Under the pieces are notes generated by a model, which made no database searches, was not told the origin of the DNA, and was given only the letters and a program-made list of their open reading frames with translations. Positions 1 through 36,047 of a stretch of DNA of 64,000 nt are shown here, one piece after another. Origin of the DNA: a virus. The stretch lies in the IMG/VR virus record IMGVR_UViG_3300029787_000021, positions 1 to 64,000 of that record; one strand, 5' to 3'. The position numbers and the translations under genes are program-made. Within the stretch, counting starts at the first letter, position 1. Each line of letters starts with the position of its first letter.

Positions 1-106
1 CTTCAGCTTGATAAGCATCATCTACAATATTAAAATCAAACTCACTAAAAGCATAAGATAATGCTTCACCTAATCCTCTTTCTAAAATAATACTTGATAA
101 TTTCAT
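1..106 (-). CDS. Partial gene with capsid-targeting-like N-terminus, downstream of prohead protease
   Basis: Only the first 35 codons are in the window; the gene runs off the left edge. The protein begins MKLSSIILERGLGEAL. The first nine residues match the peptide shared by several other proteins here (MKLSDIILE, MKLSNIIFE, MKLLNIILE) and end in I-L-E, a gp21-type cleavage motif. The ATG overlaps the TAA stop of the protease gene (TAATG), so translation is probably coupled. In T4 the scaffold gene 22 follows 21, so a scaffold or other internal head protein is plausible, but too little is visible to assign it. Confidence 0.7.
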   Translation of the reverse strand, partial: MKLSSIILERGLGEALSYAFSEFDFNIVDDAYQAE

Positions 107-681
107 TATGCTCTTAGAATATCGTTAATAATACCGTGTACAACTGTTAATTGAGTTACTTTCTTTTTACCCTCATTTAAGGAAATAGGATTCATAAAAG
201 CACCATGTGTAGACGGATTAGAAACGAAATCCCAACATACTAATTCAAAATCAGGTTGTACTTCTAAAGTACCCTCGTTAGTTTGTTGGACTGAGCCTGT
301 ACCTCTAGATGAGATACCTATTGTGTGTCCTGCTTTGATTATTTCTTTGACTATATTTCCGGAAGGAGTATTAAGTAACTCTACTTTACCCATTAAATCA
401 TCCCCATTCCAATATAAGTCTTTAACTATATGTGATGCATTCTTTAAAGATACGACTGGGGATTCAGGATGATCAAGTTCTCCATATGCATTACCGTTCT
501 TTACGAACTCATCCATATATTTTTTAGCTTCTCTTACTAGTATATCTTTTTCGTATACTCTACCATTCTGGTTTTTAGCACCAGCTCTTTGCATTACTCC
601 TTCTACTTCAAAGACTCCAGGTTTTAATTTGGATTCAGTAAGTATAGGATTAAACGGAGTTACATTTACTAATAATGCCAT
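106..681 (-). CDS. 21: Prohead core protease, T4 gp21-like
   Basis: 191 residues. Family members are serine proteases that assemble inside the prohead and cut scaffold, internal proteins and capsid proteins after (L/I)-x-E before DNA packaging. The sequence has the conserved GELDHP segment (residues about 67-72, candidate catalytic His) and the GISSRG segment (about 122-127, candidate catalytic Ser), followed by the FELVCWDFVSNPS block typical of the family. Its own N-terminus contains PILTE-S, a possible self-processing site. Neighbouring portal and terminase genes confirm a head module. No Shine-Dalgarno sequence is visible. Confidence 0.92.
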   Translation of the reverse strand: MALLVNVTPFNPILTESKLKPGVFEVEGVMQRAGAKNQNGRVYEKDILVREAKKYMDEFVKNGNAYGELDHPESPVVSLKNASHIVKDLYWNGDDLMGKVELLNTPSGNIVKEIIKAGHTIGISSRGTGSVQQTNEGTLEVQPDFELVCWDFVSNPSTHGAFMNPISLNEGKKKVTQLTVVHGIINDILRA

Positions 682-687
682 ACTATA

Positions 688-2640
688 TTATTTTTTTTCG
701 TTCATTGGTTTAGAATAAACTATTTGTTTATCTTCTTCCGAAACTCTTTGTTGTCTGATCATATCTTCTTCTTCAGGAGATAATCTTCTAGTTTTAGGTA
801 ATGGTACTTTATCGTAAGATAATCTTTGGTTTGTAAGATCTTTTAAGAATGCGGCTTGTAAAGCAGGTGCTAAATATGAACCAGCTTTTTCGTATGCACT
901 AGCTAATTTATCTCTATGTTTTAAAAAGTCACTTTCTAGAGCTTCTAATACTCCCATTAGTTCTTTTGCAGCTGCTTTAGTTTCAGTATTATACTCACCG
1001 TCCACATATCCCTGTAATCTACCTGTATATGCTTCAGCTAATATATCTTTAATAATAAACTTAAAGTTTTCTTTTAAAGCTCTTAACTTACTTTTATCTC
1101 TACCTTTAAATTTTGAAGGCTCTGATTCTATTTCTTTTTCTCCTCTTCTATTATATCCAGCTAATTCGTTTTTACCCATTGCTTTTTTAATAGCTTTATC
1201 TTTAGCTGCCATATAATCATCACCATCTATATCTCCATCTCCGTCGTGATCTTTTCCTTTCTTTTCTTTAATTTCTATTTCTTCAGAAGTTTCTTTTCTA
1301 TCTGTGCTGCAATGACCTTCGCTTATATCTTTTAAAGTTTTATCAATAGCAATTTTAAAATCTCTCATAGCATCTAAAGCTTCTTTTCTATCACCAGCTT
1401 CCATTGCATCTAACATTCTACCTAAGTGTCTATTCTCTCTGTGGTAATTTACATCTTCGAAAGAAGAATATAATTGTTTTAATTGATCTGTTGGAGAATT
1501 AATTCTAATTCTTAGTCCTGCTCTTAGCATACCATCATAATCAAAATCACTAGACCACATATCTCCTAATTCATAAGATTTAGGATTAAAAGCATTTTGT
1601 TTACCGTAATCTTTAGCTTTAGCCATAAATTCGTCAGACATTTTTTCTTCTATGTCATCTTCTTTAAACATTACGACTTTTTTACCGGTAATAGGATCTT
1701 CTTCATCTGGTAGAGCATCTATATCTTTTACAGACATAGCTCCTATTCCAGGTTCTTTATCTAGTCCTCCTTTGGGCTCTTTTACTAATATACCATTAGC
1801 ATCTGCAAAATCTTCAAATTCATCTGCAATATCTACTCCTCCTAATACGTCATTCCTATGAGTTCTTATAAAGTCCATTATATCTGATTGGTCTACTGAA
1901 GGATATTTTGCTTTAATAGTTTCAATACCTCTTTTAAGTATAGCTTTTAATCTTACATTAGAAGGTTGAGACATACTATTTAATGCATTAAGTATATTTT
2001 CTTTATTATTAATATAAAATTTGTAATCCATTCCCATATTAGTAGCATCATTTGCATTAATACTTCCTAACATATCTTCGAAGCTAATTTGAGCTCCAGC
2101 TTGTCTTGCTTTTATAAACTCGTTAAATATTCTTTCTGCGTAAGCATATATTTTATTTTTTACTGCTCCTTCATCTAATACTTCTTCTTTTAAATCTGCT
2201 TTTTTAAGTCCGTTAAATGAATCTTTATCATTACCTTTTTTATATTCAACAGGTTTATCATGCTTGTCTACTTTTTTACTTTCTCCAGCTATAAGATTTA
2301 AATAATATAATACGTCTTTTCTTAAATTTTTTATAGCTATTTTTTCACACTTATTTTTATCATCAGCAGATGCGGTTACAGAATCAATTCCTTTTTTCTC
2401 CAATTCATAATCGCAGCCTCTTTGTACTGCTTCTGGGGAGAACAGGTGGTCTTTTTCTTCATGTTTATCTTCAAAGAGCATACCTTTGTTTTTTAATATC
2501 TGAACTGTGTCTTTAAATCCGTTGTATTGTGTGATATACATTGGATAAAGTAGACGCATTTGTCTAGTAAATTCAGACTCTGCCATTAAGCCTTGCTTTA
2601 CGGCCTTATGCTTTTCTGTTACTGTTATTTTTCTACTCAT
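688..2640 (-). CDS. Large head-associated protein with EF-hand-like loop, unknown function
   Basis: 650 residues, hydrophilic and rich in Lys, Asp and Glu, probably mostly helical. No enzyme motif was found. Residues around 463-475 read DHDGDGDIDGDDY, a near-perfect 12-residue calcium-binding loop (Asp at 1, 3, 5 and 9, Gly at 6, acidic at 12), followed by a Lys/Ala-rich helix. The position between the protease and the portal, and the charged repetitive composition, suggest a scaffold or internal head protein. Several LxE motifs inside it could be cut by the protease. The start overlaps the next upstream gene by 8 bases. Confidence 0.75.
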   Translation of the reverse strand: MSRKITVTEKHKAVKQGLMAESEFTRQMRLLYPMYITQYNGFKDTVQILKNKGMLFEDKHEEKDHLFSPEAVQRGCDYELEKKGIDSVTASADDKNKCEKIAIKNLRKDVLYYLNLIAGESKKVDKHDKPVEYKKGNDKDSFNGLKKADLKEEVLDEGAVKNKIYAYAERIFNEFIKARQAGAQISFEDMLGSINANDATNMGMDYKFYINNKENILNALNSMSQPSNVRLKAILKRGIETIKAKYPSVDQSDIMDFIRTHRNDVLGGVDIADEFEDFADANGILVKEPKGGLDKEPGIGAMSVKDIDALPDEEDPITGKKVVMFKEDDIEEKMSDEFMAKAKDYGKQNAFNPKSYELGDMWSSDFDYDGMLRAGLRIRINSPTDQLKQLYSSFEDVNYHRENRHLGRMLDAMEAGDRKEALDAMRDFKIAIDKTLKDISEGHCSTDRKETSEEIEIKEKKGKDHDGDGDIDGDDYMAAKDKAIKKAMGKNELAGYNRRGEKEIESEPSKFKGRDKSKLRALKENFKFIIKDILAEAYTGRLQGYVDGEYNTETKAAAKELMGVLEALESDFLKHRDKLASAYEKAGSYLAPALQAAFLKDLTNQRLSYDKVPLPKTRRLSPEEEDMIRQQRVSEEDKQIVYSKPMNEKK

Positions 2641-2860
2641 TGTTTAAATAATCTATAAGTTTCGTACTATACGGTCTTTTCTTTTTTTTTACTTTACTAT
2701 AACCTATGGATTTAGCTTGTTTAGTAGCTCTGTTATCTCTACTGTTCTTACTAAAAGCATGAGGTGTTAAATAACTACCACCAGCACTGCCAGTAGTATT
2801 TGCTTCCTCTAATTCTTGCAACACTTCTTTAACTAATTCTTTAAGTTGACTTAACCTCAT
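2633..2860 (-). CDS. Small basic protein with capsid-targeting-like N-terminus
   Basis: 75 residues. The N-terminus, MRLSQLKELVKEVLQELEE, is an amphipathic helix with several possible (L/I)-x-E cleavage points. The rest is Ser/Gly- and then Lys/Arg-rich (KVKKKKRPYS), as in small DNA-binding internal proteins. It overlaps both neighbours by a few bases, so it sits in a tightly coupled head operon. A DNA-condensing internal protein is an inference. Confidence 0.7.
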   Translation of the reverse strand: MRLSQLKELVKEVLQELEEANTTGSAGGSYLTPHAFSKNSRDNRATKQAKSIGYSKVKKKKRPYSTKLIDYLNNE

Positions 2861-3711
2861 AGGTTCTTCAACTCTTTGATTAGATCATAATATTGCATTA
2901 TGTTAACCAGATGTGTATCAGATACTTTTTCTTTTTTAGAAATAGGTATAATATTTTTTGCTACCTCTTCTAATTTAATCTTTATCACATCATCTTTAAT
3001 ACCAGGTATTAATTTTGTAACTGCCTTAGATATCTTACCTAATTCTTCGTTGATAACATTTCGTAAACGTGTGGTCGAGTTTACTGATGTAATAAACTCT
3101 CTTAAAATATTTTTATGTTCAGGTGAAAAATCTTTATACCTGTCATTAAATTTTTCTAACAATATCTTAAATGTAAGTAATTTTAAATCTTTATCATATT
3201 TAGCAAATTCTTGTATTACTGAATCTTCTACGTCAGCTTTATTTACTATATCTGATGTGAGATGTTCTAAGATAGTTGTTCTGTTATTTACTAAGTAGTC
3301 CGGGTCTACTAGTTGATCGTTATTTTGTGCTTCTAATAAACAGTATAGAGCTGCTAAAGGTTTATAATCTGTTACTTGAATATTAAAAAATTCTTCAATA
3401 TTATAGCTTTTTTTAATTTCTGCTATAAGATGGTATTTTTGTTTTTTTAATGTTTCTTGATTGAGTTTTCTAGATATCTCTGTTATAGTCGATACTATGT
3501 TAGATGCTTTTTGAGTTGATACGTTTTTATTTCTTAAAATAAATTCGTATAATTTAAACTCTTTTGCTAAAGTTGTTTTACCTGTGTAGAATTTTTTAAT
3601 TATTCCTACAGCAGAGGAATCTTTTTTGGATAGAGTATCAGCAGCTATTTGCTTAACAAGTAGCTCAAAGATTAATCCAGTATTCCTAAACTTTGAATGT
3701 TTTATTTTCAT
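2857..3711 (-). CDS. Conserved head-module protein, unknown function
   Basis: 284 residues, helical, rich in Lys, Ile and Leu. It starts MKIKHSKFRNTGLIFELLVKQ. It has no recognisable catalytic motif and no membrane segment. It is the first gene downstream of the portal gene and is preceded by a late-type box (TATTTATA), so it probably starts a late transcript into the prohead protease. A role as a neck, portal-associated or scaffold protein is only inferred from position. Confidence 0.75.
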   Translation of the reverse strand: MKIKHSKFRNTGLIFELLVKQIAADTLSKKDSSAVGIIKKFYTGKTTLAKEFKLYEFILRNKNVSTQKASNIVSTITEISRKLNQETLKKQKYHLIAEIKKSYNIEEFFNIQVTDYKPLAALYCLLEAQNNDQLVDPDYLVNNRTTILEHLTSDIVNKADVEDSVIQEFAKYDKDLKLLTFKILLEKFNDRYKDFSPEHKNILREFITSVNSTTRLRNVINEELGKISKAVTKLIPGIKDDVIKIKLEEVAKNIIPISKKEKVSDTHLVNIMQYYDLIKELKNL

Positions 3712-3727
3712 TATACACGTTTACTAT

Positions 3728-3735
3728 TATAAATA
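3728..3735 (-). promoter_or_regulatory. Late box TATTTATA
   Basis: Sense strand CATATTTATAATAG, 16 bases before the ATG of the head-module gene at 3711. Confidence 0.65.
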
Positions 3736-3739
3736 TGGC

Positions 3740-5626
3740 CTAATCGCCTAAATCTTTAATATTGTCTTCCTTAAGTAGATTTGACTCTTTTTTTACGAAA
3801 TCCATAGATTTAAGCGTTTCTTCATTTTTAGCATATATGTTTTTAGTAATAAAGTTTTCATTTACATTTTCATTATCACTTGGAAAGCCACCGTGCATAC
3901 CATGAATACCTAAAGGATCTCTACCTCCTACAGGATTATCATTAGTACCATATACTGAGAATTTTTCAGTTGGTCTACCGCCTTCGGGACCTGGTTCTCC
4001 ATGCTTAGGTGGTGTTTCGTATCCAGGAGGGACTTGTCCTAAACTTCCTCCTTTTTCTGTTGCTGTTGCTCTTCTACCATACATAGAAGCTAAATCATGT
4101 GGAGTACCATAAGATCTGCCAGATTTAGCAGGATCGTTACCTTCTGCCTCTAGTTGAGCTATTCTAAATGCTCTTTTACCATCTTCTCTTACAAGATCTC
4201 TCATTTCATTATACTTATCTTCTGACATATCAAATATATGTTCGTAAATATAATCAGAAGAAAATAGTTTTGAGTCTTTCATTTGATTAGCTAAATCTAT
4301 TTTTTCTTTTAGTAATGCAACTTTTTCTTGTTCGTATATAACTGAAGGTGTGGTTAATTTAATTTCAAAATTAGTTAAAGATTCTCCTTCATATCCTTGA
4401 GAATATAAATGTACTAATGCTATTTTAGTTAACTCAGATTCTAGTATTCTTTGAATTCTTTCTACTGTTCTTGCGAATCTTATATCTTCTGCTGCTAATG
4501 TAGCTTTTCCGGTTAAATCTCCTTCATATCCAAAATAAGCTTTTGGAATTTTAATTGCTGCAAATAACTTATCTCTTAAGTATATAATATCGTTAGTACC
4601 ATCATAGTCTAATCCTTTGGTAGTTTCTATACGAGTAGAAGCATCTCCACCTCTAACAGGTAAGTAGAAGTCTTCCATCATATTTTGCATATTAAACTTA
4701 AGATTATATTGACCAGTATTAGGATCTACATAAGGAGTCTTTTTCATCTGGTTAATAGTCTTCTGCATAAACTGCTCTACTTCATTAGGTGGTATAGAAC
4801 CAACATTTACGTAAAACATTCTTTTTTCTGGTGCTCTCATTATACGATGTATTAACATCGCATCTTCCATTAAATTTAGTTGCTTATAAATTTTTCTAGC
4901 AGGCTCTAAATAAGAACGTCCATAAGGTAGATAAGCAGTATCAGAAAGTAATCTAAAATGAGCTACCTCGTAGTTATCTAATCTAATAACTTTTTTATTA
5001 TTTTTTCTAGGAATATAATTTGGATCATTTGAAGTAGCTAGTCCATCTGGATCAATAGTATATTCTACTTTTGTAGGTTCCTCTTCATCTACTCCTTCAT
5101 GTCTTGCTACGTTATATACTGTATAAGGTAGTACATTATAGACTCCAAATTTTTCTGAAATTTCTAATTTTAAGAAGAAATCTCCATACTTACACATATT
5201 TCTAGTCCATGACCATAAATTAAATTCTATATTTAAAACATCATAAAATAGATTATAAAGTATCCTTTGTATATTTTCATCTGAGGATTTTATTGATAAT
5301 ACTTCTCCTATATCATTTTTTACTGTTGCTTCATCAGAAAGTATATCAAGTGCAGAAGCTAATATGGCATCTGTATCCATAGCTTCATAATCAGAATAAA
5401 GTTGTACTCTTAATGTTTGGTAATTTAAGTTAGGATTATATATGTTTTGCTTATTATTAATGTATAATCTACTAAACCTATCAATTAAAGAGTTAGTCTC
5501 ATATTTACCTGATCTTTGTATTTGGTTGGCATCTATGACTTTTAGTTGATCTCCTCCGATGTTTCTTATTACTACATCGGTAGAAAATAATTTTGTAAGT
5601 CTACCGAAAAGTGATTTATCTGCCAT
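3740..5626 (-). CDS. 20: Portal vertex protein, T4 gp20-like
   Basis: 628 residues. Twelve copies form the ring through which DNA is packaged and ejected, and to which the neck binds. Family features seen are the N-terminal segment with a D-T-D-A-I-L-A-S-A-L-D-I motif, the LxPYGRSYLEPARKIYKQL region, the MRAPEKRMFYVNVG segment and the tunnel-helix region YFGYEGDLTGKATLA. The C-terminus is Gly/Pro/Asn-rich and extended. It lies directly between the terminase and other head genes, as in marine T4-like phages. A TATTTATA late box lies 17 bases upstream of the start. Confidence 0.93.
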   Translation of the reverse strand: MADKSLFGRLTKLFSTDVVIRNIGGDQLKVIDANQIQRSGKYETNSLIDRFSRLYINNKQNIYNPNLNYQTLRVQLYSDYEAMDTDAILASALDILSDEATVKNDIGEVLSIKSSDENIQRILYNLFYDVLNIEFNLWSWTRNMCKYGDFFLKLEISEKFGVYNVLPYTVYNVARHEGVDEEEPTKVEYTIDPDGLATSNDPNYIPRKNNKKVIRLDNYEVAHFRLLSDTAYLPYGRSYLEPARKIYKQLNLMEDAMLIHRIMRAPEKRMFYVNVGSIPPNEVEQFMQKTINQMKKTPYVDPNTGQYNLKFNMQNMMEDFYLPVRGGDASTRIETTKGLDYDGTNDIIYLRDKLFAAIKIPKAYFGYEGDLTGKATLAAEDIRFARTVERIQRILESELTKIALVHLYSQGYEGESLTNFEIKLTTPSVIYEQEKVALLKEKIDLANQMKDSKLFSSDYIYEHIFDMSEDKYNEMRDLVREDGKRAFRIAQLEAEGNDPAKSGRSYGTPHDLASMYGRRATATEKGGSLGQVPPGYETPPKHGEPGPEGGRPTEKFSVYGTNDNPVGGRDPLGIHGMHGGFPSDNENVNENFITKNIYAKNEETLKSMDFVKKESNLLKEDNIKDLGD

Positions 5627-5643
5627 TCTGTATTTTGTTTATA

Positions 5644-5651: not shown

Positions 5652-5654
5652 GTT

Positions 5655-7229
5655 CTATTTAAGTAACCATGTAATATCTTCTTCTCCACGGTTACTATCT
5701 ATAATATACGGATTATTTTGCATATATCCAACATTTGTCATAATAGCTTTGTTTCTGCTATTAAGGTTAGTAAATGATGATAATTGTGCTCTTGCTAAGT
5801 CCATACCTTGTTGTCTTAATTTAAGTGCAGTATCTCTTACAAATAAAGCTGTTGCACATGCTATAAGTAAATCGTCATTATAGTTTATTTGAGCTTGAGG
5901 TTTTCCATTTTTCCAAACAAAAACTCTCATTTCTGATAGTAATCTTTTAGATTGTATAGTAACTGATTTCTCTCTAACATACTCTATCATTTTAGCTATT
6001 ACTAAAGGACGAGTTCTCATAGACATAGTAAATCCTGGTACTAGTTTATCTCTTTCATATTTAGACATATATGATTCTACTGTTTCCATATTAGAAGTAG
6101 AGCTGTAGTATAAGTTTTTATACTGTCTTTCCATTATCTGTTCTATTGTAGCCCATCCTATATTGGCATTTTCAACCACTAATAGTGCATCATTATATTC
6201 AGCAGCAATACCAACTAATACATTACCAAAATCTTTAGGAGATAATTTACCTTTATACTCTGCTACTTGGACACACTGTTCAATATCGAATACATGGAAT
6301 GCAGAATAATCAGCACTATCACCTCTAGCTACGTCAGCAACTACCATATAGCTTTTAGTATAATCACATCCTTCCCATATCCACAAATTCCCATCTGCTC
6401 CTCTTCTTTCAACAGGATCTACTTGATAAGTTTTTTCATAGAATAACATATCATCTGGTTCAAAGACTGTATCACCGGAAGCTAAGAAATCACAATCACA
6501 CTCTTGACCGGCCATTCTAGGTCCTAAATCTGCATCTTGTTGTTCTCTCCACTGTTTATCTCTTTCAGGGTGTACTGTCCAAGGTAGTTTAATAGGTAAA
6601 AAACTATTTTCGCCAGTCTCTGCTTTTTCCCAAGTTTGATGAAACCAGTTACCTATACCATTAGGAGTAGATAAAGCCATACATTGACCACCGGTTGCTA
6701 ATGTTTGTTGTGCAGCAGTAAATGTTTCATCGATATTATCTATAAAGGCTGCCTCATCTATTAATAGTAGTGATACTGCTTCTGATCTTGCAGCATCTGC
6801 ATTAGATGATTTTGCAGTTATTTTAGATCCATTTTTTAATCTTAAAGATAGTTTATTTTTTTCTAATGCTGGTAGTTTAATCCATTTAGGTAATTGATCA
6901 TACATAAACATAGTCTTAGTAACTAAGTTACGAGCAGTTGCTTGAGTAGTTGCTAATGCAAGTACGTTTTTATCCTTATGAAATATCATTAACCAAAGAC
7001 TATAAGCAGAAGCTAAAGTTGAAATTCCTAACTGCCTAGACTTTAAGGTAATAATATACTGATGATCTCTAAATAAATGTAAAGCTTTTTCTTGAAAAGG
7101 ATAAAGATTAAATAGAATTCTACCTCTCGTAGGATGCTGTATAAAACAGTACTTACGCATGAAATAGGCTGGATCTTTAGCGCATTTAAGATATTCTTGC
7201 GCTATTATTTTTTTTATGTCTTGTGCCAT
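5655..7229 (-). CDS. 17: Terminase large subunit, T4 gp17-like
   Basis: 524 residues. This is the ATP-driven DNA packaging motor and headful nuclease. The ATPase domain has SRQLGIST (residues about 64-71) at the Walker A position and LLLIDEAAF (about 154-162) as Walker B plus catalytic Glu, followed by the LSTPNG coupling motif. The nuclease domain has VVADVARGDSADYSAF with the first metal-binding Asp, and a later IACATALF region. The usual Walker A Lys is replaced by Ile in the GKT position. Gene order 17-20-21 is conserved. Confidence 0.95.
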   Translation of the reverse strand: MAQDIKKIIAQEYLKCAKDPAYFMRKYCFIQHPTRGRILFNLYPFQEKALHLFRDHQYIITLKSRQLGISTLASAYSLWLMIFHKDKNVLALATTQATARNLVTKTMFMYDQLPKWIKLPALEKNKLSLRLKNGSKITAKSSNADAARSEAVSLLLIDEAAFIDNIDETFTAAQQTLATGGQCMALSTPNGIGNWFHQTWEKAETGENSFLPIKLPWTVHPERDKQWREQQDADLGPRMAGQECDCDFLASGDTVFEPDDMLFYEKTYQVDPVERRGADGNLWIWEGCDYTKSYMVVADVARGDSADYSAFHVFDIEQCVQVAEYKGKLSPKDFGNVLVGIAAEYNDALLVVENANIGWATIEQIMERQYKNLYYSSTSNMETVESYMSKYERDKLVPGFTMSMRTRPLVIAKMIEYVREKSVTIQSKRLLSEMRVFVWKNGKPQAQINYNDDLLIACATALFVRDTALKLRQQGMDLARAQLSSFTNLNSRNKAIMTNVGYMQNNPYIIDSNRGEEDITWLLK

Positions 7230-7237
7230 AACTCATT

Positions 7238-8332
7238 TTAGAAATTATAAGACCATCTAGGTAGCCCGTCTTTCATTTCAATTTTAATTTTAGAGCCAAC
7301 TAATTCAATTAACTTATCAGCTTTCACTCTTTGAAAAGCACCACTCTTATCATCTAAGAAAAATACTTCTCCAAATTCTTCATCAGCAATGTACTTATTA
7401 ATTACTTTCTTTGAAAAATGACTTTCTAATTTGTCTGCATCAATTCCGCTACCGCTTTTATATTTTGATAAATTAAACCCTTCAAAATCAATTCCTGGGT
7501 AGGTACTTAATATTGCTCTATTAGCAATTTCTATAGTATCATCAAACCTATCTTTGTTTTGATCTACTACTGCTGCTAATATTTTATTTATTCTATGAAA
7601 AGGTCTTTTACCTTTAGTTACACTAGTATCAATTTTTCTTATTAAAAAGTTGTTAACACCAGATATAATTTTATCAATCATTACTTTATCAGAATTTTTA
7701 CCAAACCCTGCTTTTTGTCCCATAGGAACTGCTCCTCTATTTTTTACTTCAATTCCTAATTCGCCTACAGAGACATCTCCTTTGCCTTTTCCATCACTTG
7801 AAACATCTTGACACATTACGCTTAAGAATACTTCTCCTTTTCCTGTAGCTATATTACCCATAGAAGGTTTAAGATCAAGTAGGTATCTTAAAGTTTCTGT
7901 AGATAATAGGTTTGTAAATTGTTTTGTTAAGTTTCCTCCGCCTTTACCGCTACCTAATGTATCGTAAGTAATCATTTTTCCACCTCTAACATATGAATGA
8001 AAATTTTGAATATCTCCATTATCTACTAAAGTATTGTATATTCTTCTTGAAGTAGCAGCTACTGATTTACCTTTGCTATTTAAATATTCAATTACATCAC
8101 CTTTGTAAGCTACTCCTGATATGCCGTTTAGTATTTGCTTTAAATCATCAGGAGTAAATTTACCATTTTGAATAGCGTCTACTACTTCTTGCTTAGAAAC
8201 TGCTCCATCTGTGTTAGTAAGTTCGTTTATTAGAGATTCTAATATAACCTTATCTTCAGGATTATTAATATTAGGTATTCCTGTTTTGGTTCTCCATGCC
8301 CACTCAGTATATAACTTATCAGTAATTTCCAT
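7238..8332 (-). CDS. Unknown protein with possible PD-(D/E)XK nuclease core
   Basis: 364 residues. An N-terminal region resembles a winged-helix or replication-type helical domain (SVAATSRRIYNTLVDNGDI). The centre reads GKGDVSVGELGIEVKNRG, with Asp followed by E-V-K on a likely beta strand, which resembles the PD-(D/E)XK nuclease core. The rest is not recognised. It lies 8 bases from the terminase gene. A DNA-cutting or DNA-end protein is plausible, but the call rests on one short motif. Confidence 0.7.
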   Translation of the reverse strand: MEITDKLYTEWAWRTKTGIPNINNPEDKVILESLINELTNTDGAVSKQEVVDAIQNGKFTPDDLKQILNGISGVAYKGDVIEYLNSKGKSVAATSRRIYNTLVDNGDIQNFHSYVRGGKMITYDTLGSGKGGGNLTKQFTNLLSTETLRYLLDLKPSMGNIATGKGEVFLSVMCQDVSSDGKGKGDVSVGELGIEVKNRGAVPMGQKAGFGKNSDKVMIDKIISGVNNFLIRKIDTSVTKGKRPFHRINKILAAVVDQNKDRFDDTIEIANRAILSTYPGIDFEGFNLSKYKSGSGIDADKLESHFSKKVINKYIADEEFGEVFFLDDKSGAFQRVKADKLIELVGSKIKIEMKDGLPRWSYNF

Positions 8333-8333
8333 A

Positions 8334-8624
8334 TTAGAATTTATTAAATAAATCTCTTAAAAGAGGTCTAAGTTTAGCATTCTTTTTTAAGTTGTCATTT
8401 ATATTGTCTAATAAAAAATCAAGCATTTTACCTAATTCTTGAGGTGTATTTACTCTTGCAAGATAGTTTTTTAAAGGACCGGCTAATACTTTTTCTAGTT
8501 TTTGAACTTCAGCTGAATCTCCTTTTGCTTGATCAGTAGGGGATTGTACTGCTGTACCTTGTGGTTCATTTTGCTCTACTTCTTGTAGAGGTTTCAATGT
8601 TATAATTTGACCTAGTTTTATCAT
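8334..8624 (-). CDS. Small protein, possible capsid-targeting N-terminus
   Basis: 96 residues. It starts MIKLGQIITLKPLQEVEQ, resembling the shared tag with a possible cut after L-Q-E. A Gln/Glu-rich linker follows, then a helical C-terminus (LEKVLAGPLKNYLARVN...). No family was recognised. The gene abuts its neighbours on both sides within the head operon. Confidence 0.68.
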   Translation of the reverse strand: MIKLGQIITLKPLQEVEQNEPQGTAVQSPTDQAKGDSAEVQKLEKVLAGPLKNYLARVNTPQELGKMLDFLLDNINDNLKKNAKLRPLLRDLFNKF

Positions 8625-8635: not shown

Positions 8636-9754
8636 TTATGCTTCAGGTTCTTCACCTGGTTCTTCAAAATCTATTTCTTCTCCTCCTAAATCAGCTCCTA
8701 AATCAGCTCCTCCACCTTCTTCATCTCCTCCACCAAATTCATCACCACCTTCATCTCCGCCGCCGAACTCATCACCTCCACCAGCATCATCTCCTCCAGG
8801 AAAGTCTCCTCCTCCTCCGCCACCACCTCCGGTGTCGGTATCAGCAGGTTCTCCTGTTCCAGCTCCATCCATTGGACCTTCTTTATATAGTATAGATAAT
8901 TTATCTAATGCTTGTTGGTATTCACTAATTTTATCAATAAAGTATCTTTTACCCATTATTTCAGCTTGAAAAGATTTACCTGTCCATTTTAAAATATAAT
9001 CTTGTCCATTTTTTAAGTTTATTCTAAATGAACTTGGACGTGGTGAAATCCAATCAATAGTATCTACAAATTCTTTAAAATCTTCTGTTTGTAGTTTTAC
9101 TATAGCAGCTTGTAAGGTAGGGAATTTGCTAAGTATAGTATCTGTAGCATCTTCTAATACAGTTTCTTTTGGTGCGTCTGGATCTCCTGGTTGTTGTGGT
9201 TTAGGATCTTTAGCATTAACTTCAGCTAGCATATCAGGGTTAGGATATTTTTTCATTATACCTTCTAGTGCTACCTCCATAATACGTCTAGACTTCATCA
9301 TTGCATATTGATCAGGTCGCTCAGTTCTTAAATATCTCTGTAATTTTCTAAAATTAGTTTTTATTAACTCGAATAACTCTCTAGCTGCTTTATCTTTTCT
9401 TACATCAGCATTATTCATTAATTTTTTAATATCTAATATTATATCTGAATAGTCTTGATATAGATTTTCAAATGATGGTAGTTTAATTATTTTATGAGAA
9501 ATAGACCCTGTTGTTTTATTTTGACTGGTAAACTTAAAGTAAGTATCTCCATCGTTGGAAATAAAATCTTTATCCATATTTACTTTACCGTATCTGTCTT
9601 CTAATCCTTTTATAAATGATTTAGGATAATCTTTTAGTTTACGAGTATCAGGATCAGATTCAGGATCAATTGCATCTTCTTTTACTTCGTTTTGCTCAAT
9701 TAATACTTCTTGATATGCTTCGGCAATAATATCTTTTATATCTTTTATTTTCAT
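8636..9754 (-). CDS. Head-associated protein with Gly/Asp-rich tail and capsid-targeting-like N-terminus
   Basis: 372 residues. It starts MKIKDIKDIIAEAYQEVL. The IIAE-A segment closely resembles the T4 internal-protein targeting peptide MKTYQEFIAE-A. A helical core (residues about 60-290) is followed by a low-complexity, highly acidic tail of Gly, Asp and Glu (about 300-372). Such an acidic tail could mimic DNA or bind basic internal proteins. The tail's DNA explains a long plus-strand open frame here, which is not a gene. Confidence 0.72.
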   Translation of the reverse strand: MKIKDIKDIIAEAYQEVLIEQNEVKEDAIDPESDPDTRKLKDYPKSFIKGLEDRYGKVNMDKDFISNDGDTYFKFTSQNKTTGSISHKIIKLPSFENLYQDYSDIILDIKKLMNNADVRKDKAARELFELIKTNFRKLQRYLRTERPDQYAMMKSRRIMEVALEGIMKKYPNPDMLAEVNAKDPKPQQPGDPDAPKETVLEDATDTILSKFPTLQAAIVKLQTEDFKEFVDTIDWISPRPSSFRINLKNGQDYILKWTGKSFQAEIMGKRYFIDKISEYQQALDKLSILYKEGPMDGAGTGEPADTDTGGGGGGGGDFPGGDDAGGGDEFGGGDEGGDEFGGGDEEGGGADLGADLGGEEIDFEEPGEEPEA

Positions 9755-12409: not shown

Positions 12410-12778
12410 CTATTTGTTTAATAGATCAACTGCTTGAGTTTCAAATATTAAACGTAGTATAATAGCACTTATTAGTGCAAATATAATCCATAATGCTTTG
12501 TTAACTCCATCTTTCCACCTATTTATCTCATCAATTTGACGTACTTTGTCTTGAAAATCAGGGTCATTTGCCTCTAATCTACGTCTAAAAGCTGAGTTTT
12601 GGTTGGTTTTTACAATAACTCCGTCTTCAGGATTAAGTAGAGTATACTTAAGCTCAGACATATCATCTTTTAACTCTCTTACATCGTCTACTAATGCTTT
12701 GAGTTCTCCATTCGGCATGTGCTTTTTGATATTAAGCAATTCTTTAAGAACGCTCTCTAATATTTGTTTCTGTGTCAT
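12410..12778 (-). CDS. Small coiled-coil protein with C-terminal membrane segment (XhlA-like)
   Basis: 122 residues. It starts MTQKQILESVLKELLN, has a helical or coiled-coil middle, and ends with one hydrophobic segment (ALWIIFALISAIILRLIF, residues about 95-113). The layout resembles XhlA/holin-associated phage membrane proteins. It has its own late box 22 bases upstream. A lysis or membrane-anchor role is an inference. The I-L-E near the start also fits the protease motif, but the rest argues for a membrane protein. Confidence 0.6.
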   Translation of the reverse strand: MTQKQILESVLKELLNIKKHMPNGELKALVDDVRELKDDMSELKYTLLNPEDGVIVKTNQNSAFRRRLEANDPDFQDKVRQIDEINRWKDGVNKALWIIFALISAIILRLIFETQAVDLLNK

Positions 12779-12820: not shown

Positions 12821-13396
12821 TTACTTAAGATGATCTTTAACCCATCCTATGTATTCGTAAATAGCTTCTTTAAACTTTTTATCTACTTTTCCTTTATTTC
12901 CTTTCCAATCCTCAACTACTCCTTGTTCAGTAACAAACGTATCTATTGAATTAACCTGGTCTAGCATCCACTGTTCAAGATCTTTAACAAATGCAGACAT
13001 ATTACCTTTTACCATGCTTTGTTCGTATGCTTCATAAAGACCATGTTTTCTTAGCTCAGCTTCGTATTTTATAGTACAGTTATAACAAAAGCCATGTATT
13101 TTATACATTTTTTTAGATAACCTATATTTCATACTACCCCCACATTTAGGGCAAGCTAGAGGTATTTTAATTGCTTTTTTAGCAGCATCTAGTTTTGTAA
13201 TATTTTGCTTAAGACCATTTTTGATAGTCCAGGTTTTTCCATTACTTTCCCAAACGTCTCCTTCTTTATGTCTTTTATTATTTTTACGATAGCCAACTCC
13301 TAATTTAGTTTTAGATGTAAAATCTTTATTTACTAAATTTCTTGCTCTTTGTAAGTCTGCTTCTTTAAATTCTTTTTTTAATAGGGATTCATTCAT
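12821..13396 (-). CDS. Zinc-ribbon protein, unknown function
   Basis: 191 residues. A four-Cys zinc-binding site is visible: CPKCGGSM (residues about 84-91) and GFCYNCTIKY (about 103-112). The N-terminal third is basic with many Lys/Asn (YRKNNKRHKEGDVWESNGK). The C-terminal part is helical (AFVKDLEQWMLDQVN). It overlaps the HAD nucleotidase gene by 8 bases, so the two are likely co-translated. A nucleic-acid-binding role is possible. Confidence 0.72.
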   Translation of the reverse strand: MNESLLKKEFKEADLQRARNLVNKDFTSKTKLGVGYRKNNKRHKEGDVWESNGKTWTIKNGLKQNITKLDAAKKAIKIPLACPKCGGSMKYRLSKKMYKIHGFCYNCTIKYEAELRKHGLYEAYEQSMVKGNMSAFVKDLEQWMLDQVNSIDTFVTEQGVVEDWKGNKGKVDKKFKEAIYEYIGWVKDHLK

Positions 13397-13934
13397 AACC
13401 TAATTTTTTTAATTCATCTATAACAGGTGAGATATCTCCACCTTTACATCTTATAGCTATACCGTTACTATCATTCCATTCCTTAATATTAGATTTTTTA
13501 TCATCTATTAATATACTTGATGGATTAGCGTGTCTTTGCTTATCTTTTGAATATGCAAATATAACTTTTGGTTTAGGATTAAGATTATTTTTTACCCATA
13601 AGTTTTTACCTAATCTAGAGGTATCATTTCTTGAAGGTGAAGTAAGAAGATGCGGTCTATAAGGTTTAATAAAATCCCATAATGCTTGACCTCCAGGCAT
13701 CCAATCCATTCCTACCCAAAATTTTACTCCTATTTTTACATCTATAAGTTCCCAAAAAGCAGGAGTACTATACTTTTTTTCATATTCCTGAGGATTCATT
13801 CCAGTAAAGTGTTCAAACCTACCTTCAAAATTAGTTAATACACCATCCATATCACAGTAAATCTGGTATGGTGGAACTTCTTTCTGTTCCGGTAGTGGGT
13901 ATGTTTCCAATATGTTAGTCAGCTTTATATTCAT
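13389..13934 (-). CDS. HAD-family 5'-nucleotidase-like protein with capsid-targeting-like N-terminus
   Basis: 181 residues. HAD motif I is YCDMDGVLTNFEGRF (nucleophile Asp plus acid/base Asp two residues on). Motif II is in LLTSPSRND. The late motif is ILIDDKKSNIKEW (metal-binding Asp pair). This fits deoxyribonucleotidase-like enzymes that remove phosphate from nucleoside monophosphates. The protein starts MNIKLTNILETYPLPEQ, so a cut after I-L-E would leave the whole catalytic domain intact. It overlaps both neighbours. Enzyme class is fairly sure; packaging in the head is inferred. Confidence 0.82.
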   Translation of the reverse strand: MNIKLTNILETYPLPEQKEVPPYQIYCDMDGVLTNFEGRFEHFTGMNPQEYEKKYSTPAFWELIDVKIGVKFWVGMDWMPGGQALWDFIKPYRPHLLTSPSRNDTSRLGKNLWVKNNLNPKPKVIFAYSKDKQRHANPSSILIDDKKSNIKEWNDSNGIAIRCKGGDISPVIDELKKLGYE

Positions 13935-15099
13935 TTTTTATTTTATCTTCCCAGTTTCTAAAAGTAATATTACCTAGTAGGTATGCTTCTTTTTCTATTT
14001 CTTTTAAAGCATCATCTTCGTTAGTATTAGTACCATAATGCTTTCCTAATCTACCTTGTAAATTTTGCATATGATGAATCATTTCGTGTGAAAATGATCT
14101 CATTATATCTTTAGGATGTCTATTCATTATAAAAAGTACTAATTCTTTTTTAGCAGGACTATAATATGCTGTTCTACCAAAAAAGTCTTGAGCTTCTGAG
14201 ATATCTTTCTTTATTTTTATTTCAGGCAAAGGAGTTATTTCCATGCCTTCGTCTATCATATATTCTAATAAGGAACTCATAAAAGGTTTAAAATCAAAAC
14301 TACTAATAGAGTTATTATTAGCTAATGAAATTCTTATATGGTTTTGATTAAAATCTATATCGTAATAATCAGTACTTATTACTCCTTGTAGTTTATTATA
14401 AAGATAACCTAATCTTTCTCTTTCTTTAGATGGAAGTTGTTTTACTGATCTATCTTCTAGCAGAGCTTCTAAAGTATTAAAAGCTATTTCGCTCATTTCT
14501 TCTTGTATAATAGAAGACTTTAAGGCATTAAGTATAGTTAATAATTCTTTTCTATCTAATTCTTTCGGAAAAAAGTCTCTTATATCATCTAAACTTCCTT
14601 TCAAAGCAATATTACGTAAATTAGTTGCTCTAACACTCTGAGTAGCAGGATTACTAACTGCTAATCCCTTAGCATTAGGTACGTTTTTAAATGTAGTAAC
14701 TCTTTTTAAATCAGGTAAATCTTCTTCTCCTCTTATACCTGTAATAGCATAAAATTCTTCTTGAGGATTCGCTTTAGCATAATCTTTAGCTGCAAACATT
14801 GGATTTTTTTGTCCATCTTCTACAACTACTCCTGGTAAGTATTTAGAATATATCTCCCATATTTGATGTGCTTCTTCTTTAGTAATCCCATTTCTTTCAC
14901 CACCACCAGCAAAAATAATAACTTTATCTATTGTAGGTTTATCTCCTTTATCTTGTTTAAGTACGCTTAAACCTTTTTCTTCATAATCATTAATATCATA
15001 TACCTGTCCATTATAAGAATTTGAAAGTAGCTTTTTTACTACTTCAAAATGACCTTTATGGGGTGGTTTAAATGCTCCTGGGTATAATGCTATTGCCAT
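13915..15099 (-). CDS. Nucleotidyltransferase fused to a zinc metallopeptidase-like domain
   Basis: 394 residues, two parts. Residues 1 to about 190 look like a cytidylyltransferase/NMN adenylyltransferase-type enzyme: LYPGAFKPPHKGHFEVV carries the GxFxPxHxGH nucleotide-binding motif, and AVSNPATQSVRATNLR resembles the ISSTxIR C-terminal motif. Residues about 290-394 contain SFSHEMIHHMQNLQGR, a HExxHH-type zinc-peptidase motif, with a downstream acidic segment (EIEKEAYLLGN) that could supply the third ligand. Between them, EEMSEIAFNTLEALLED contains possible prohead protease sites. It overlaps the nucleotidase gene, suggesting joint nucleotide or NAD metabolism. Confidence 0.8.
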   Translation of the reverse strand: MAIALYPGAFKPPHKGHFEVVKKLLSNSYNGQVYDINDYEEKGLSVLKQDKGDKPTIDKVIIFAGGGERNGITKEEAHQIWEIYSKYLPGVVVEDGQKNPMFAAKDYAKANPQEEFYAITGIRGEEDLPDLKRVTTFKNVPNAKGLAVSNPATQSVRATNLRNIALKGSLDDIRDFFPKELDRKELLTILNALKSSIIQEEMSEIAFNTLEALLEDRSVKQLPSKERERLGYLYNKLQGVISTDYYDIDFNQNHIRISLANNNSISSFDFKPFMSSLLEYMIDEGMEITPLPEIKIKKDISEAQDFFGRTAYYSPAKKELVLFIMNRHPKDIMRSFSHEMIHHMQNLQGRLGKHYGTNTNEDDALKEIEKEAYLLGNITFRNWEDKIKNEYKAD

Positions 15100-15102: not shown

Positions 15103-16035
15103 TTATAAAAAGTTTTGTATTTCTCTATCAATTTCTTCAGGAGATGAATGTTTAAGAAGTTCTTGAAACTGGGGTGAGTATAACATTGCTGCTATATTAT
15201 TTAATACTTCTTCATGAGTTGCATCTCTTTTATCTTTACCGTCTCTATATTTTTTTATAGCAAGTTTTAATTTATCAGCTCCAGGTCCTACACCGTTAGC
15301 TTGAAATGCTTTTAAAAATACTTTTTTTGCTGCTTTATCTTCAGATCTATTATTTTTATCAAAATCTATCCCAGATACTGCTTGATCAAAAGCTTTTTGT
15401 TCTTCAGGTGTTATTTCAACAGGTTTAAAAAAACTTGATCCTCCTACTCCTTTACTTATATTATATTTTTCTAAATATTCTTTTATACCATCTACTCCTT
15501 TTGTAGCTGCTACATCGAACCCTTCAATCTCTTTTTTAAACTTACCGCTATAATCGTTTACAAATATGGATAAATTACCTTTAAGTAGTTTACTAAATTC
15601 TTCAATTTTTTGATATACATTTCTCCAAGTAGAAAATACAGCTGAACCTGGTATGTTTCTTTTCCTGCTAAAATTTTGGATATAAGAAACCATTGGATGA
15701 GTATACACCATAACCATATATGTATCGTATCCTTGTTCTATTAATTTTTTAAGGGTGTTAGTAAAACGAATTCCTGATGCTGTAGTATCCCAAACGAAAG
15801 ATTCTTTTTTGTCTATAGCAGCATTTACGTCTTTATCATTTTGTGCTGCTGCTGGACCTAATTTATTATACATTGGACTGTCAGGATCTTCAACATATTT
15901 ATCAGCATTGTATTGTTTTAGGCTATCTAAACTAAGCTGATTAAGGACATATGATTTTCCTACACCTGCTCCTCCAGCCATTACTACTGCTTTCGGTCTG
16001 CCATTTTGTTCTAGTATTATATTTAATAGTTTCAT
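15103..16035 (-). CDS. Zeta-toxin-like P-loop kinase with capsid-targeting-like N-terminus
   Basis: 310 residues from the ATG at 16035. This start is chosen over one 36 bases upstream because it gives MKLLNIILEQNGRPK, matching the shared tag, and begins one base after the preceding stop. Walker A is VVMAGGAGVGKSYVLN. Next come NADKYVEDPDS and ESFVWDTTAS, then an Arg-rich lid-like segment (FSRKRNIPGSAVFSTWRNV). This resembles zeta-toxin and related small-molecule or nucleotide-sugar kinases. The substrate cannot be told. A cut after I-L-E would leave the full kinase. Confidence 0.8.
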   Translation of the reverse strand: MKLLNIILEQNGRPKAVVMAGGAGVGKSYVLNQLSLDSLKQYNADKYVEDPDSPMYNKLGPAAAQNDKDVNAAIDKKESFVWDTTASGIRFTNTLKKLIEQGYDTYMVMVYTHPMVSYIQNFSRKRNIPGSAVFSTWRNVYQKIEEFSKLLKGNLSIFVNDYSGKFKKEIEGFDVAATKGVDGIKEYLEKYNISKGVGGSSFFKPVEITPEEQKAFDQAVSGIDFDKNNRSEDKAAKKVFLKAFQANGVGPGADKLKLAIKKYRDGKDKRDATHEEVLNNIAAMLYSPQFQELLKHSSPEEIDREIQNFL

Positions 16036-16036
16036 A

Positions 16037-16999
16037 TTAATTATTAATTCTACCTCCTCTACTTGAACCACTTGAGCTTCTACCAGAAGAAGATGATGAT
16101 GAACTTCCTCTACTAATATTACTAGAGCTTCTGCTAGAGCTATTATAAGAAGGCCTGGTGGTGTTTATATTAAGGTTATTATTTGAGTTAATATTAGGAG
16201 TTCTATTGTATATTCTTATATTATTATTAGGCACATTATTAGGATTAGTATAAACTCTAGGTTTAACGTTTAATCTTTCTCTTAGTCCGTTTACAATATT
16301 ATTAAGATTATTTTCAGGTACACTTCTTCTTGGATTATTATATCTTGTAATAATATTATTTTCAATGTTAGAATTTACTCTATTGTTAATATTATTAGAG
16401 CCTCTTCTACCATTTATAAAAGCTATATTAGTATTTTCTCTACTTGAATTCCAAATTGCATTATATCCTGGGTTATTGTATGGTCCGTTATACCAATTAT
16501 TCCAAGGTCTGTAAGGTCTAAACCAATTGTGTCTCCATGGATTGTGCCAACTACTATATCCCCAGTAGTAAGGATAATTAAATGCCCAATCGTACCAAAA
16601 ATCATACCTATTAAAATATACATCAAAAGAATTAAACGGCCTCCAATAACTATATCTAAAATTATTTGCATACCAATTGTAAGGCTGGTCCATAGCGTAT
16701 TGAGCGAAATTCCATCTAAAGGTATTATCAGTTCTAAGTTTCCATTTTAATTGTGAGTACGATAATGTGTCTATCTTTACATCTGCTGGTACTTGTAAAA
16801 CAACCTCTTCAGGTCCATATATTGGATCGTAGTTTAAAGTACTAAGTCTATAGGTACTACAACTACATAAAAATAATAGAAGTAATCCCATAAGTAAGCC
16901 TTTAGTCCAAGATAACCAAGCTGCTTGATAAGAAGATATATTCCATTTTTCTAACATTCCGTAGAAAATACTTTTATGCCATTGTATAAATTTATTCAT
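16037..16999 (-). CDS. Phage lipoprotein, aromatic- and Asn/Ser-rich
   Basis: 320 residues. After a short cytoplasmic part, GLLMGLLLLFLCSCSTYRL is a lipoprotein signal peptide with lipobox Cys (residues about 34-48). The mature part has a Trp/Tyr/Asn-rich block (residues about 110-175), then an Asn-rich and a Ser/Arg/Gly-rich tail. This composition is common among Bacteroidetes outer-membrane lipoproteins. A role in envelope alteration or superinfection exclusion is possible but unproven. It overlaps the nuclease gene by 8 bases. Confidence 0.75.
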   Translation of the reverse strand: MNKFIQWHKSIFYGMLEKWNISSYQAAWLSWTKGLLMGLLLLFLCSCSTYRLSTLNYDPIYGPEEVVLQVPADVKIDTLSYSQLKWKLRTDNTFRWNFAQYAMDQPYNWYANNFRYSYWRPFNSFDVYFNRYDFWYDWAFNYPYYWGYSSWHNPWRHNWFRPYRPWNNWYNGPYNNPGYNAIWNSSRENTNIAFINGRRGSNNINNRVNSNIENNIITRYNNPRRSVPENNLNNIVNGLRERLNVKPRVYTNPNNVPNNNIRIYNRTPNINSNNNLNINTTRPSYNSSSRSSSNISRGSSSSSSSGRSSSGSSRGGRINN

Positions 17000-19632: not shown

Positions 19633-20050
19633 TTGTAGTCTTTTTATATTTACTGTGGTTAGATTCCCAGTTTGCTTTAGCATCTTCGTTTTTTTCTTTC
19701 TCTGCTTTAGTAGCATAAATTGCTTTTCTTTGAGCATCAGATTTATATTTTCCTTCATCCATTTCAGGGTGGAATAATAATTTAATTACTTTAGCTTCTT
19801 TTGCAACTGACTTACCATCTATTTCTACTTCTATAGGATATGGTTCGAATGTATCTGCCCAATATGCTATGTCGTAACTTTTATCTTTATTATTAGTTAC
19901 TAATAAACCTCGATTATATTTATCTTCTTCTGCTTGAAGTACTATTTCTTTATCTATAGGTAATATTAAATCACCCATTAGTTTGATATCGCCTTCTTCA
20001 TATCCACCTTCGTTGTATCGATTTTCAAGTATTATATCAGATAATTTCAT
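19619..20050 (-). CDS. Small acidic protein with capsid-targeting-like N-terminus
   Basis: 143 residues. It starts MKLSDIILENRYNEGGYEEG, the clearest example of the shared tag, with I-L-E at residues 7-9. A beta-rich middle (LPIDKEIVLQAEEDKYN, YDIAYWADTFEPYPIEVEID) is followed by a highly charged Lys/Glu helix at the C-terminus. No enzyme family is recognised. It is tightly packed between other tagged or small genes. Confidence 0.75.
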   Translation of the reverse strand: MKLSDIILENRYNEGGYEEGDIKLMGDLILPIDKEIVLQAEEDKYNRGLLVTNNKDKSYDIAYWADTFEPYPIEVEIDGKSVAKEAKVIKLLFHPEMDEGKYKSDAQRKAIYATKAEKEKNEDAKANWESNHSKYKKTTNETE

Positions 20051-20481: not shown

Positions 20482-20973
20482 TTATATAAAGTCTTTACGG
20501 TAAAACTTGCCTAATATGTTATCGTTAATATGAGCACTATATTTATTTTCTAATACTCCATTAACCATTAAGTGTTTAGTCTCAAAATACGTTAATAACT
20601 TTTTATTGGGAACAAATTCTAATATTTTCTTTTCCCAACTTTCATTTGAATTATCTTTTTTAGAAAGCTCTAAAATTTCTTTTTGAGATCCGTAATAATC
20701 TTTCCAATCTGATTCAGTAATAATTTTTTGTTTGAGAGGTGTTCGACCTTTCAACCCTTTTAAAGCTCTTTCTTCTTTAAGTTGTTGTAAAGCTCTTTTT
20801 CCTAATCTTTTATTTCTTTCAAAATAAAGCACTTTCTTTCCTATATATCTTACATCAGTTGGTTTATACCAAACTTCGTAAATGAACCCGTAGGTTCCTT
20901 CTGGCATATCTGAAATATCTGTGATTATCCTCCCTTGGTAAGTCCAAGAAGGTACTGTTGGCATATTTTCCAT
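20482..20973 (-). CDS. GIY-YIG-type endonuclease-like protein
   Basis: 163 residues. YGFIYEVWYKPTDVRYIGKK (residues about 28-47) has the spacing of the GIY-YIG motif. WKDYYGSQKEI lies further on, and LLTYFETKHLMV supplies the usual catalytic Glu. GIY-YIG nucleases are common in T4-like phages as homing endonucleases (Seg) or DNA-degrading enzymes. It sits alone between the cargo block and the tail-fibre genes, a typical site for a mobile endonuclease gene. Confidence 0.78.
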   Translation of the reverse strand: MENMPTVPSWTYQGRIITDISDMPEGTYGFIYEVWYKPTDVRYIGKKVLYFERNKRLGKRALQQLKEERALKGLKGRTPLKQKIITESDWKDYYGSQKEILELSKKDNSNESWEKKILEFVPNKKLLTYFETKHLMVNGVLENKYSAHINDNILGKFYRKDFI

Positions 20974-31901: not shown

Positions 31902-31911
31902 TTACCTTTTA

Positions 31912-33391: not shown

Positions 33392-33392
33392 C

Positions 33393-35216: not shown

Positions 35217-35626
35217 TATTGTTCAAAATTAATATTTAGAAAATCTTCTATACCAGTTTCAGCTATTTGGTAGCTCATACTAAAATTTACTGAGTTATTA
35301 TCAGGATCTGCTGTTGTAGAAATTTTACTTGGTATAACCGCTGGGAAGTAGTTTCTTAACGAAGATCTTACTTCTTGGTCTATTTGTTCTATTTTTTCTT
35401 CAGTTATATTATCAAATAGAAGATTTCTTAATCCTGTGCCTAAACCAGGGCTAAAGAATCTTTCTCCTCTACCAGTTAAGAAAAAATTAATTATATTATT
35501 TTTTATAGCATCTTTTGTAGTATATGTAGAGTTAAACACAGCTTGACCGCTAAACGGTAGAGAGATCCCTACAGCTTTTCTAGGCTGTCTATCTAGTGGA
35601 TTAATTCTTTTTACTTCAAATGCCAT
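35216..35626 (-). CDS. 25: Baseplate wedge protein, T4 gp25-like
   Basis: 136 residues, the usual length of gp25, which connects the baseplate wedge to the sheath. The family pattern is clear: AIKNNIINFFLTGRGERFFSPGLGTGLRNLLF, then a helix (EEKIEQIDQEVRSSLRNYFP) and a final beta region. The E-x-x-F-x-P-x-x-G core is intact. It overlaps gp6 by one base. Confidence 0.93.
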   Translation of the reverse strand: MAFEVKRINPLDRQPRKAVGISLPFSGQAVFNSTYTTKDAIKNNIINFFLTGRGERFFSPGLGTGLRNLLFDNITEEKIEQIDQEVRSSLRNYFPAVIPSKISTTADPDNNSVNFSMSYQIAETGIEDFLNINFEQ

Positions 35627-35627
35627 A

Positions 35628-36047
35628 TTATGTTAATTGTCTACTACTTTTTTTATTAGCTAAATCTAATATATCTTTAGCTTTACCTACAAATTCTAAT
35701 TTACTTATATCTATACCCGGCTCTGGTCCGCTGTTCATACCCATTCCAGATGCCATTCTATTTGCTGTGGAAGGCTGTCCTCCCATTATATTATTAGCAT
35801 CTTCTTTTGTCATAGTATTCATAGTCTGGTTTAGCATCTCTGTTATAGGAGTCAAATTCTTTTTATTAGTCTCATTTAACTTAGGATCTACCGACCATTT
35901 TCTAGTTTTAGTGTCTGCTTTCTTGTAACCACTCGTTTCAGGTTTACTGGCAAACTTAACTGCCTCATTTAAAATGTCTTTCAACTCGTCCTGGACGGCT
36001 GCTCTGACTTCTTCTCTTATTATTTTTCGTAAACTATCTAGTTTCAT
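35628..36047 (-). CDS. Small protein with tag-like N-terminus, unknown function
   Basis: 139 residues. It starts MKLDSLRKIIREEVRAAVQDEL, which resembles the shared capsid-tag (I-R-E near residue 12) but extends into a long helix. The rest is Lys-, Asn- and Met-rich with no known domain. A TATTTATA box ends only three bases before the ATG, so the message may be leaderless. It lies just upstream of the baseplate gene 25. Confidence 0.65.
   Translation of the reverse strand: MKLDSLRKIIREEVRAAVQDELKDILNEAVKFASKPETSGYKKADTKTRKWSVDPKLNETNKKNLTPITEMLNQTMNTMTKEDANNIMGGQPSTANRMASGMGMNSGPEPGIDISKLEFVGKAKDILDLANKKSSRQLT

Follow-up and report, generated by a model that had tools for sequence, protein, structure and literature searches.

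The stretch of DNA analysed here (the window) comprises the initial 64,000 bases of the 73,431-base record IMGVR_UViG_3300029787_000021, which derives from a marine T4-like virus of bacteria, and the element of interest is a short N-terminal peptide, referred to here as the tag, that is shared by several of its proteins. The minus strand of the window holds a head module of the T4 type, which includes the large subunit of the terminase, gp17 (5655-7229; Pfam PF03237), the portal protein gp20 (3740-5626; PF07230, E 1.2e-72) and the prohead protease gp21 (106-681; Peptidase_S77, PF03420, E 4.6e-33, 114.8 bits against a cut-off of 27). The first two carry no tag and serve as landmarks of the module; the S77 match bears out the earlier claim that gp21 is encoded here, and this is the enzyme expected to cut off the tag. 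Among annotated phages the closest is Flavobacterium phage immuto, whose head region is syntenic with the window; a gp21-type protease is also annotated in immuto and was found in six further contigs. In comparison with the order of the T4 head genes, 17-18-19-20-67-68-21-22-23, a small gene (2633-2860) and a large gene (688-2640) of the window occupy the positions of 67 and 68.

Four window proteins, all encoded on the minus strand and with otherwise unrelated bodies, open with MKL(S/L)xII(L/F)E, and direct reading confirmed that these N-termini lie where the initial annotation had placed them. The gene directly after gp21 has the tag MKLSSIILE (80-106) and is truncated at base 1, where the record stops; the genes found in this position in relatives begin with MKLASIILEA, MKLSELILES and MKLSKIILEN. 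A 141-residue protein with no assigned function and no match in Pfam (19207-19632) carries MKLSNIIFE (19606-19632), a 143-residue protein (19619-20050) carries MKLSDIILE (20024-20050), and a zeta-toxin-like P-loop kinase (15103-16035) carries MKLLNIILE (16009-16035). In two cases the Met of the tag is internal to a longer open frame, i.e., 19207-19758 and the GTG-started 15103-16071. This Met is taken as the true start because the homologues of the 19207-19632 protein in the contigs G001 (143 residues) and G007 (141 residues) begin at MKLTNIIFE and MKLTSIIFE, and because 17 of 17 kinases align from the tag. The codons used in the four tags (TTA/CTG/TTA/CTA for Leu3, ATT/ATC/ATA/ATA for Ile6 and TTA/TTT/CTT/CTA for residue 8) differ at most synonymous positions; therefore, it is the peptide and not the DNA that is held by selection. 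A SegE-type GIY-YIG homing endonuclease (20482-20973; Pfam PF19835) adjoins the cluster of tagged genes.

The distribution of the tag was evaluated in ten contigs, namely the long contigs behind nine of 80 terminase relatives that were fetched, and the complete immuto genome; the genes of all ten were called by one blind rule and the enrichment statistics were centred on the terminase gp17. Two motifs were counted: hhxE (hydrophobic-hydrophobic-x-Glu ending at residue 7-18) and a register motif resembling the T4 capsid-targeting sequence (hydrophobic-x-x-hydrophobic-hydrophobic-x-E ending at residue 8-16). The hhxE motif is present in 101/244 head-module N-termini versus 15/244 windows taken from the interior of these proteins (p=8e-33 for the excess), whereas elsewhere N-termini (92/1103) and internal windows (85/1103) do not differ (p=0.64). 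Likewise, the register motif was found in 82 of the 262 N-termini of the head module (31%) versus 41 of 1085 elsewhere (4%) and 1-2% of the internal control windows. When each family is given one vote, the figures are 22/59 for the head module and 16/326 for the rest (p=1e-10), and two internal windows counted in the same way gave 1/59 and 0/59. The initial annotation had considered that a tag equally frequent on early proteins would speak against its proposal; such equality was not observed, because the excess of the motif is confined to the head module and N-termini elsewhere stand at background. In four long genomes, sliding windows of 26 kb showed the peak of the tag at the head module, and within single genomes the N-termini of unrelated head-module families were alike in 61 of 2927 pairs; two sets of internal windows gave 3 and 13 such pairs. 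The tagged proteins sort into at least 87 body clusters. Chance as the source of the shared N-termini is ruled out by the head-module enrichment, the register and the per-family counts.

Two genes outside the head module deserve mention. A short Lys-rich protein with the leader MTRLTLAQMIGE is encoded about 60 kb from this module (L002:2268-2492, positions 66268-66492 of the record), and its homologues, with the leader MPFKKSQILELVKE, are within the head module. In immuto, a gene beside those of the DNA polymerase and the single-stranded DNA-binding protein (L003:1803-2318) shows the leader MENFDLKKFLVENRLTYNSKLINE, an apparent exception to the confinement to the head module.

The tag matches the register of the T4 capsid-targeting sequence. 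Previous work in T4 showed that the ten N-terminal residues of IPIII, MKTYQEFIAE, are enough for packaging and that gp21 cleaves after L/I-x-E; by mutagenesis, targeting was traced mainly to residues 4 and 7, and processing to residues 8 and 10 (PMC9026906). In MKLSxIILE the hydrophobic residues are at P7, P4 and P3, the same distances from the Glu (P1) as in T4, and the peptide closes with the gp21 motif L/I-x-E. A hydrophobic P7 was found in 82/105 head-module hhxE N-termini versus 166/423 internal motifs (p=6e-13), in a test that was framed after many tags had been seen, on a register that itself comes from the T4 mutagenesis. The T4 controls, ipII/ipIII (MKTYQEFIAE-A), gp24 (MAKINELLRE-S) and gp22 (MLKEQLIAE-A), show this layout as well, with gp22 lacking the hydrophobic P7. 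By inspection, the P7/P4 hydrophobics hold for the tag types A, B, C and D, and three other leaders that recur in relatives, MKKSQLRQIIKE-A, FDLKKFLxE-N and RMQKLAGIITE-S, keep the register. The last of these is part of MKKQILSEQF(R/K)RMQ(K/F)LAGIITE-S, carried by two proteins (L005:11675-12139 and, in immuto, L003:25061-25456) that fit at P7, P4, P3 and P1.

The tag behaves as a module separate from the protein that bears it. Across the 17 aligned homologues of the zeta-like kinase the I7-L8-E9 of the tag never varies, four hypervariable residues come next and the P-loop domain follows; accordingly, the entropy is 0.64 bits for the tag, 2.24 for the linker, 0.28 for the P-loop and 1.02 for the rest. 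AlphaFold models the tag of this kinase as a low-confidence helix outside the fold, with a mean predicted local distance difference test (pLDDT) value of 53 for residues 1-10 versus 85 for the next ten, and in a miniature kinase described below residues 1-12 are unstructured (pLDDT <50) and the domain starts at residue 16. In contig G005, the homologue of the 19619-20050 protein combines a matching body (38% identity over 91 residues, E 8e-22) with another leader, the type-C FNIKKFLIE-N, so that the tag type of a single protein family differs between phages. A further homologue (L222) retains the tag, with an insertion of about 33 residues between it and the body. Where the Glu is shifted (IILKE, IILHE, VILGE), L/I-x-E is still kept. 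Tagging is selective, because the nucleotidyltransferase-like protein 13915-15099, flanked by two tagged genes, has no tag. This protein combines a cytidylyltransferase-like N-terminus with an HExxH stretch close to its C-terminal end (SHEMIHH), and its syntenic counterpart in immuto, of 907 residues and also untagged, is annotated as a nicotinamide mononucleotide adenylyltransferase.

Several of the tagged proteins resemble known enzymes. The kinase 15103-16035 matches Zeta_toxin (PF06414) with 38.9 bits against a cut-off of 22.3 and has the Walker A sequence GGAGVGKS; Foldseek ranked O-phosphoseryl-tRNA kinase first, with epsilon/zeta and PezT also among the matches and low TM-scores, and its substrate could differ from a uridine diphosphate-sugar. 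A phmmer search of this kinase against PDB gave no match, nor did tblastn searches of annotated phage records with the kinase and with one distantly related tagged protein. A second enzyme-like protein is a miniature protein-kinase-fold protein of 146 residues (18756-19196, minus strand), for which kinases and pseudokinases were the top Foldseek matches in PDB (84 matches with E<=0.001); its SGDYG loop, K53 and closing Asp are conserved and most of the C-lobe is missing. A HAD protein similar to 5'-3' deoxyribonucleotidases (13389-13934, minus strand; PHROG 2643, residues 22-166) has its domain beginning near residue 22, after the weak tag candidate MNIKLTNILE, and is more doubtfully tagged cargo. 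Of the enzymes named in the initial annotation, the zeta-like kinase and the mini-kinase have the tag directly before the domain, and the HAD nucleotidase is a weak case.

The relatives extend this repertoire. In contig G009 the domain of an Fe/Mn superoxide dismutase (L135:5709-6356) starts at residue 14, right behind MIKMSDILLEA, making it a candidate virion-delivered superoxide dismutase, and in G004 a fusion of a GNAT acetyltransferase with a polymerase-beta-type nucleotidyltransferase (L109:393-1646) has the tag MKLTQLILE. Most tagged proteins had no match in PHROGs and Pfam. A pattern scan of IMG/VR, which covers ATT/GAA-type codons only, revealed the leader MK-hydrophobic-(S/T)-x-I-I-x-E on many further unrelated open reading frames among the matches listed. 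In the same matches, whose counts are illustrative and not frequencies, contigs with a tagged long open reading frame included both an S77 protease and a T4 portal in 6/15 cases, and the protease was present in 0/9 chance-hit contigs. For immuto, the predicted mature N-termini include ALDASTPAPNEIPG (gene at 113188), NKLTTNSKILKE (118632), ESDFMPKYQIYC (109856) and, for the scaffold (125626), AKTIREAA.

The looser N-termini that had been grouped with the four tags are not all alike. Two of them fit well: a 75-residue core protein (2633-2860, minus strand) that sits between the portal side and gp21, as gp67 does in T4, with the tag MRLSQLKELVKE (2825-2860) and the motif in 48/48 members of its family; and a 372-residue protein with an acidic Gly-rich C-terminus (8636-9754, minus strand), in which the tag is MKIKDIKDIIAE-A (9719-9754) and 44/51 family members are tagged. 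Three fit weakly in the window itself. The tag of the mini-kinase, MKTTRITLGE, is degenerate, and in the alignment its orthologues carry a strict MKLSKIILE; MNIKLTNILE of 13389-13934 keeps I-L-E without the hydrophobic register (P7 and P4), and just 3/16 members of this family have hhxE; 8334-8624 keeps L/I-x-E alone, again with no hydrophobic P7/P4. The N-terminus of 35628-36047 matches the motif, but the gene is in the baseplate (tail) module and conservation continues past the motif in 7/7 relatives, so that an ordinary amphipathic helix, and not a tag, is the probable explanation. Together with 12410-12778 it was dismissed as an ordinary helix, since conservation in both extends across the Glu. 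The 284-residue family of 2857-3711 was also excluded, its hhxE match being a conserved internal LIYE with no hydrophobic P7. In the family of 7238-8332 the motif fits in many relatives (MNLIDKVILE-W) and not in the window member.

We consider it likely that the shared N-terminus is a capsid-targeting leader of the T4 type, which would provide both targeting and cleavage; functional delivery into the host is held with lower confidence. At a late stage of infection, the hydrophobic face of the short helix (P7, P4) would dock the tagged proteins onto the prohead scaffold core, and shell assembly would close them in. Subsequent cleavage after (I/L)-x-E by the gp21-type protease would set the mature protein free inside the head, and when the virion next infects a cell this protein would exit together with the DNA. 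We infer packaging, cleavage and ejection of the tagged proteins from the comparative data and, more weakly, that the enzymes (the zeta-like kinase and the mini-kinase, and in relatives the superoxide dismutase and the GNAT-nucleotidyltransferase) may act on the host as infection begins. The capsid-targeting idea of the initial annotation thus gains strong comparative support from the clustering at terminase, portal and gp21, the T4 register, the modularity and the folded domains that come next. Of the proteins that it grouped together, some (8334-8624, 13389-13934 and 35628-36047) fit poorly, and several tagged ones look like head-core proteins rather than weapons. The tagged genes in the gp22 and gp67 positions are probably core structure and not cargo, and 8636-9754 is possibly a structural protein; some tagged proteins are likely structural because core proteins that bear this motif are broken down in T4.

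Other explanations were weighed against this one. The tagged proteins could be merely parts of the prohead core or scaffold, which dock and are cut and are then degraded or lost instead of delivered, as suggested by the presence of the same motif on the gp67- and gp22-position genes and by the fact that gp22, gp67 and gp68 of T4 end up as fragments (PMC9026906). However, complete enzymes with conserved catalytic parts follow the tag (the zeta-like kinase, the mini-kinase, the Fe/Mn superoxide dismutase and the GNAT-nucleotidyltransferase), and presence and repertoire differ among phages, as with the T4 internal proteins, which makes this alternative unlikely. A helix that acts as an interaction or localisation peptide (e.g., for the host membrane or the portal) with no proteolysis, the Glu reflecting helix composition, would agree with the amphipathic character of the peptide and with the similar helices, with no break after the Glu, of the 35628-36047 and 12410-12778 families; nevertheless, the invariance of the Glu and of the I/L two residues before it in the 17 kinases next to four hypervariable residues, the survival of L/I-x-E when the Glu shifts, and the clustering of the tags beside the protease render it very improbable. 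Finally, the 31% G+C content of the window and its frequent MK starts could point to an effect at the level of translation start or DNA, either A+T-rich codons after the ATG or a recent 27-bp duplication. This we find scarcely credible, in view of residues that are kept while synonymous sites are scrambled and of N-termini outside the head module that stand at the internal background (p=0.64); DNA duplication, a regulatory repeat and a start-codon signal were all rejected on the codon differences and the rest-of-genome control.

Several points weigh against the capsid-targeting and delivery interpretation itself. Among the IMG/VR matches listed, 9/15 tag-bearing contigs are without an S77 protease or T4 portal, being fragments or chance matches; the 41/1085 N-termini outside the head module that also match the register motif include some amphipathic helices; and the gene starts rest on a simple purpose-written caller and on homology. 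In addition, T4 gp22, gp67 and gp68, with the same kind of motif, are destroyed during maturation (PMC9026906), and because the motif also marks such proteins the tag alone does not mean delivery.

The system is similar to the capsid-targeting sequences of T4 IPI, IPII, IPIII and Alt in that an N-terminal peptide of about ten residues is common to otherwise unrelated proteins, with hydrophobic P7, P4 and P3, Glu at P1, an L/I-x-E end and a gp21-type protease. What is new with respect to T4 is the sequence of the leader, the several interchangeable types (MKLSxIILE and at least three more) and the putative enzymatic cargo, which includes a zeta-like kinase, a mini-kinase, a superoxide dismutase and a GNAT-nucleotidyltransferase; furthermore, the genes lie around terminase-portal-gp21, unlike the T4 ip loci. 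T4 Ip1-Ip3, which inhibit the GmrSD type IV restriction enzymes, are also a variable set linked only by a packaging leader (PMC12373910), but the cargo described here is mostly enzymatic or without assigned function. In phiKZ and SPN3US a gp21-family protease removes an N-terminal piece after a short x-x-E, probably targeting ejection proteins; however, many of those propeptides exceed 100 residues and phiKZ uses S/A-x-E, in contrast with the 9-14 residues and L/I-x-E seen here (PMC5694885). Polyvalent and MuF-fused effectors are likewise predicted enzymes that accompany the DNA, including GNAT and nucleotide-acting ones, with delivery inferred from fusion to structural domains or from context (PMC5512222, PMC9503650) and not, as here, from the presence of a short, removable leader on individual proteins. 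No paper on such tags in flavobacterial or marine T4-like phages, and no virion proteomics of immuto, was found in the open-access literature, most subscription journals and preprints being outside this coverage.

A broader proposal, put forward tentatively and with slightly more doubt than conviction, is that marine and flavobacterial T4-like phages share a clade-wide modular code for capsid import, in which interchangeable tags (MKLSxIILE, MKKSxLxxIIKE, FDLKKFLxEN and RMQKLAGIITES) would load dozens of unrelated enzymes, kinases and a superoxide dismutase included, as a first-strike kit delivered to the host; the tag classes may send cargo to different core partners or positions. If true, the virion cargo of an abundant group of uncultured phages would be readable directly from sequence, any protein with such a leader would become a candidate injected effector, and many hypothetical proteins would acquire a functional context. 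It would also provide a list of testable early-infection enzymes, among them a candidate phage-delivered superoxide dismutase and a zeta-like kinase, and would point to the existence of packaging tags beyond those of T4.

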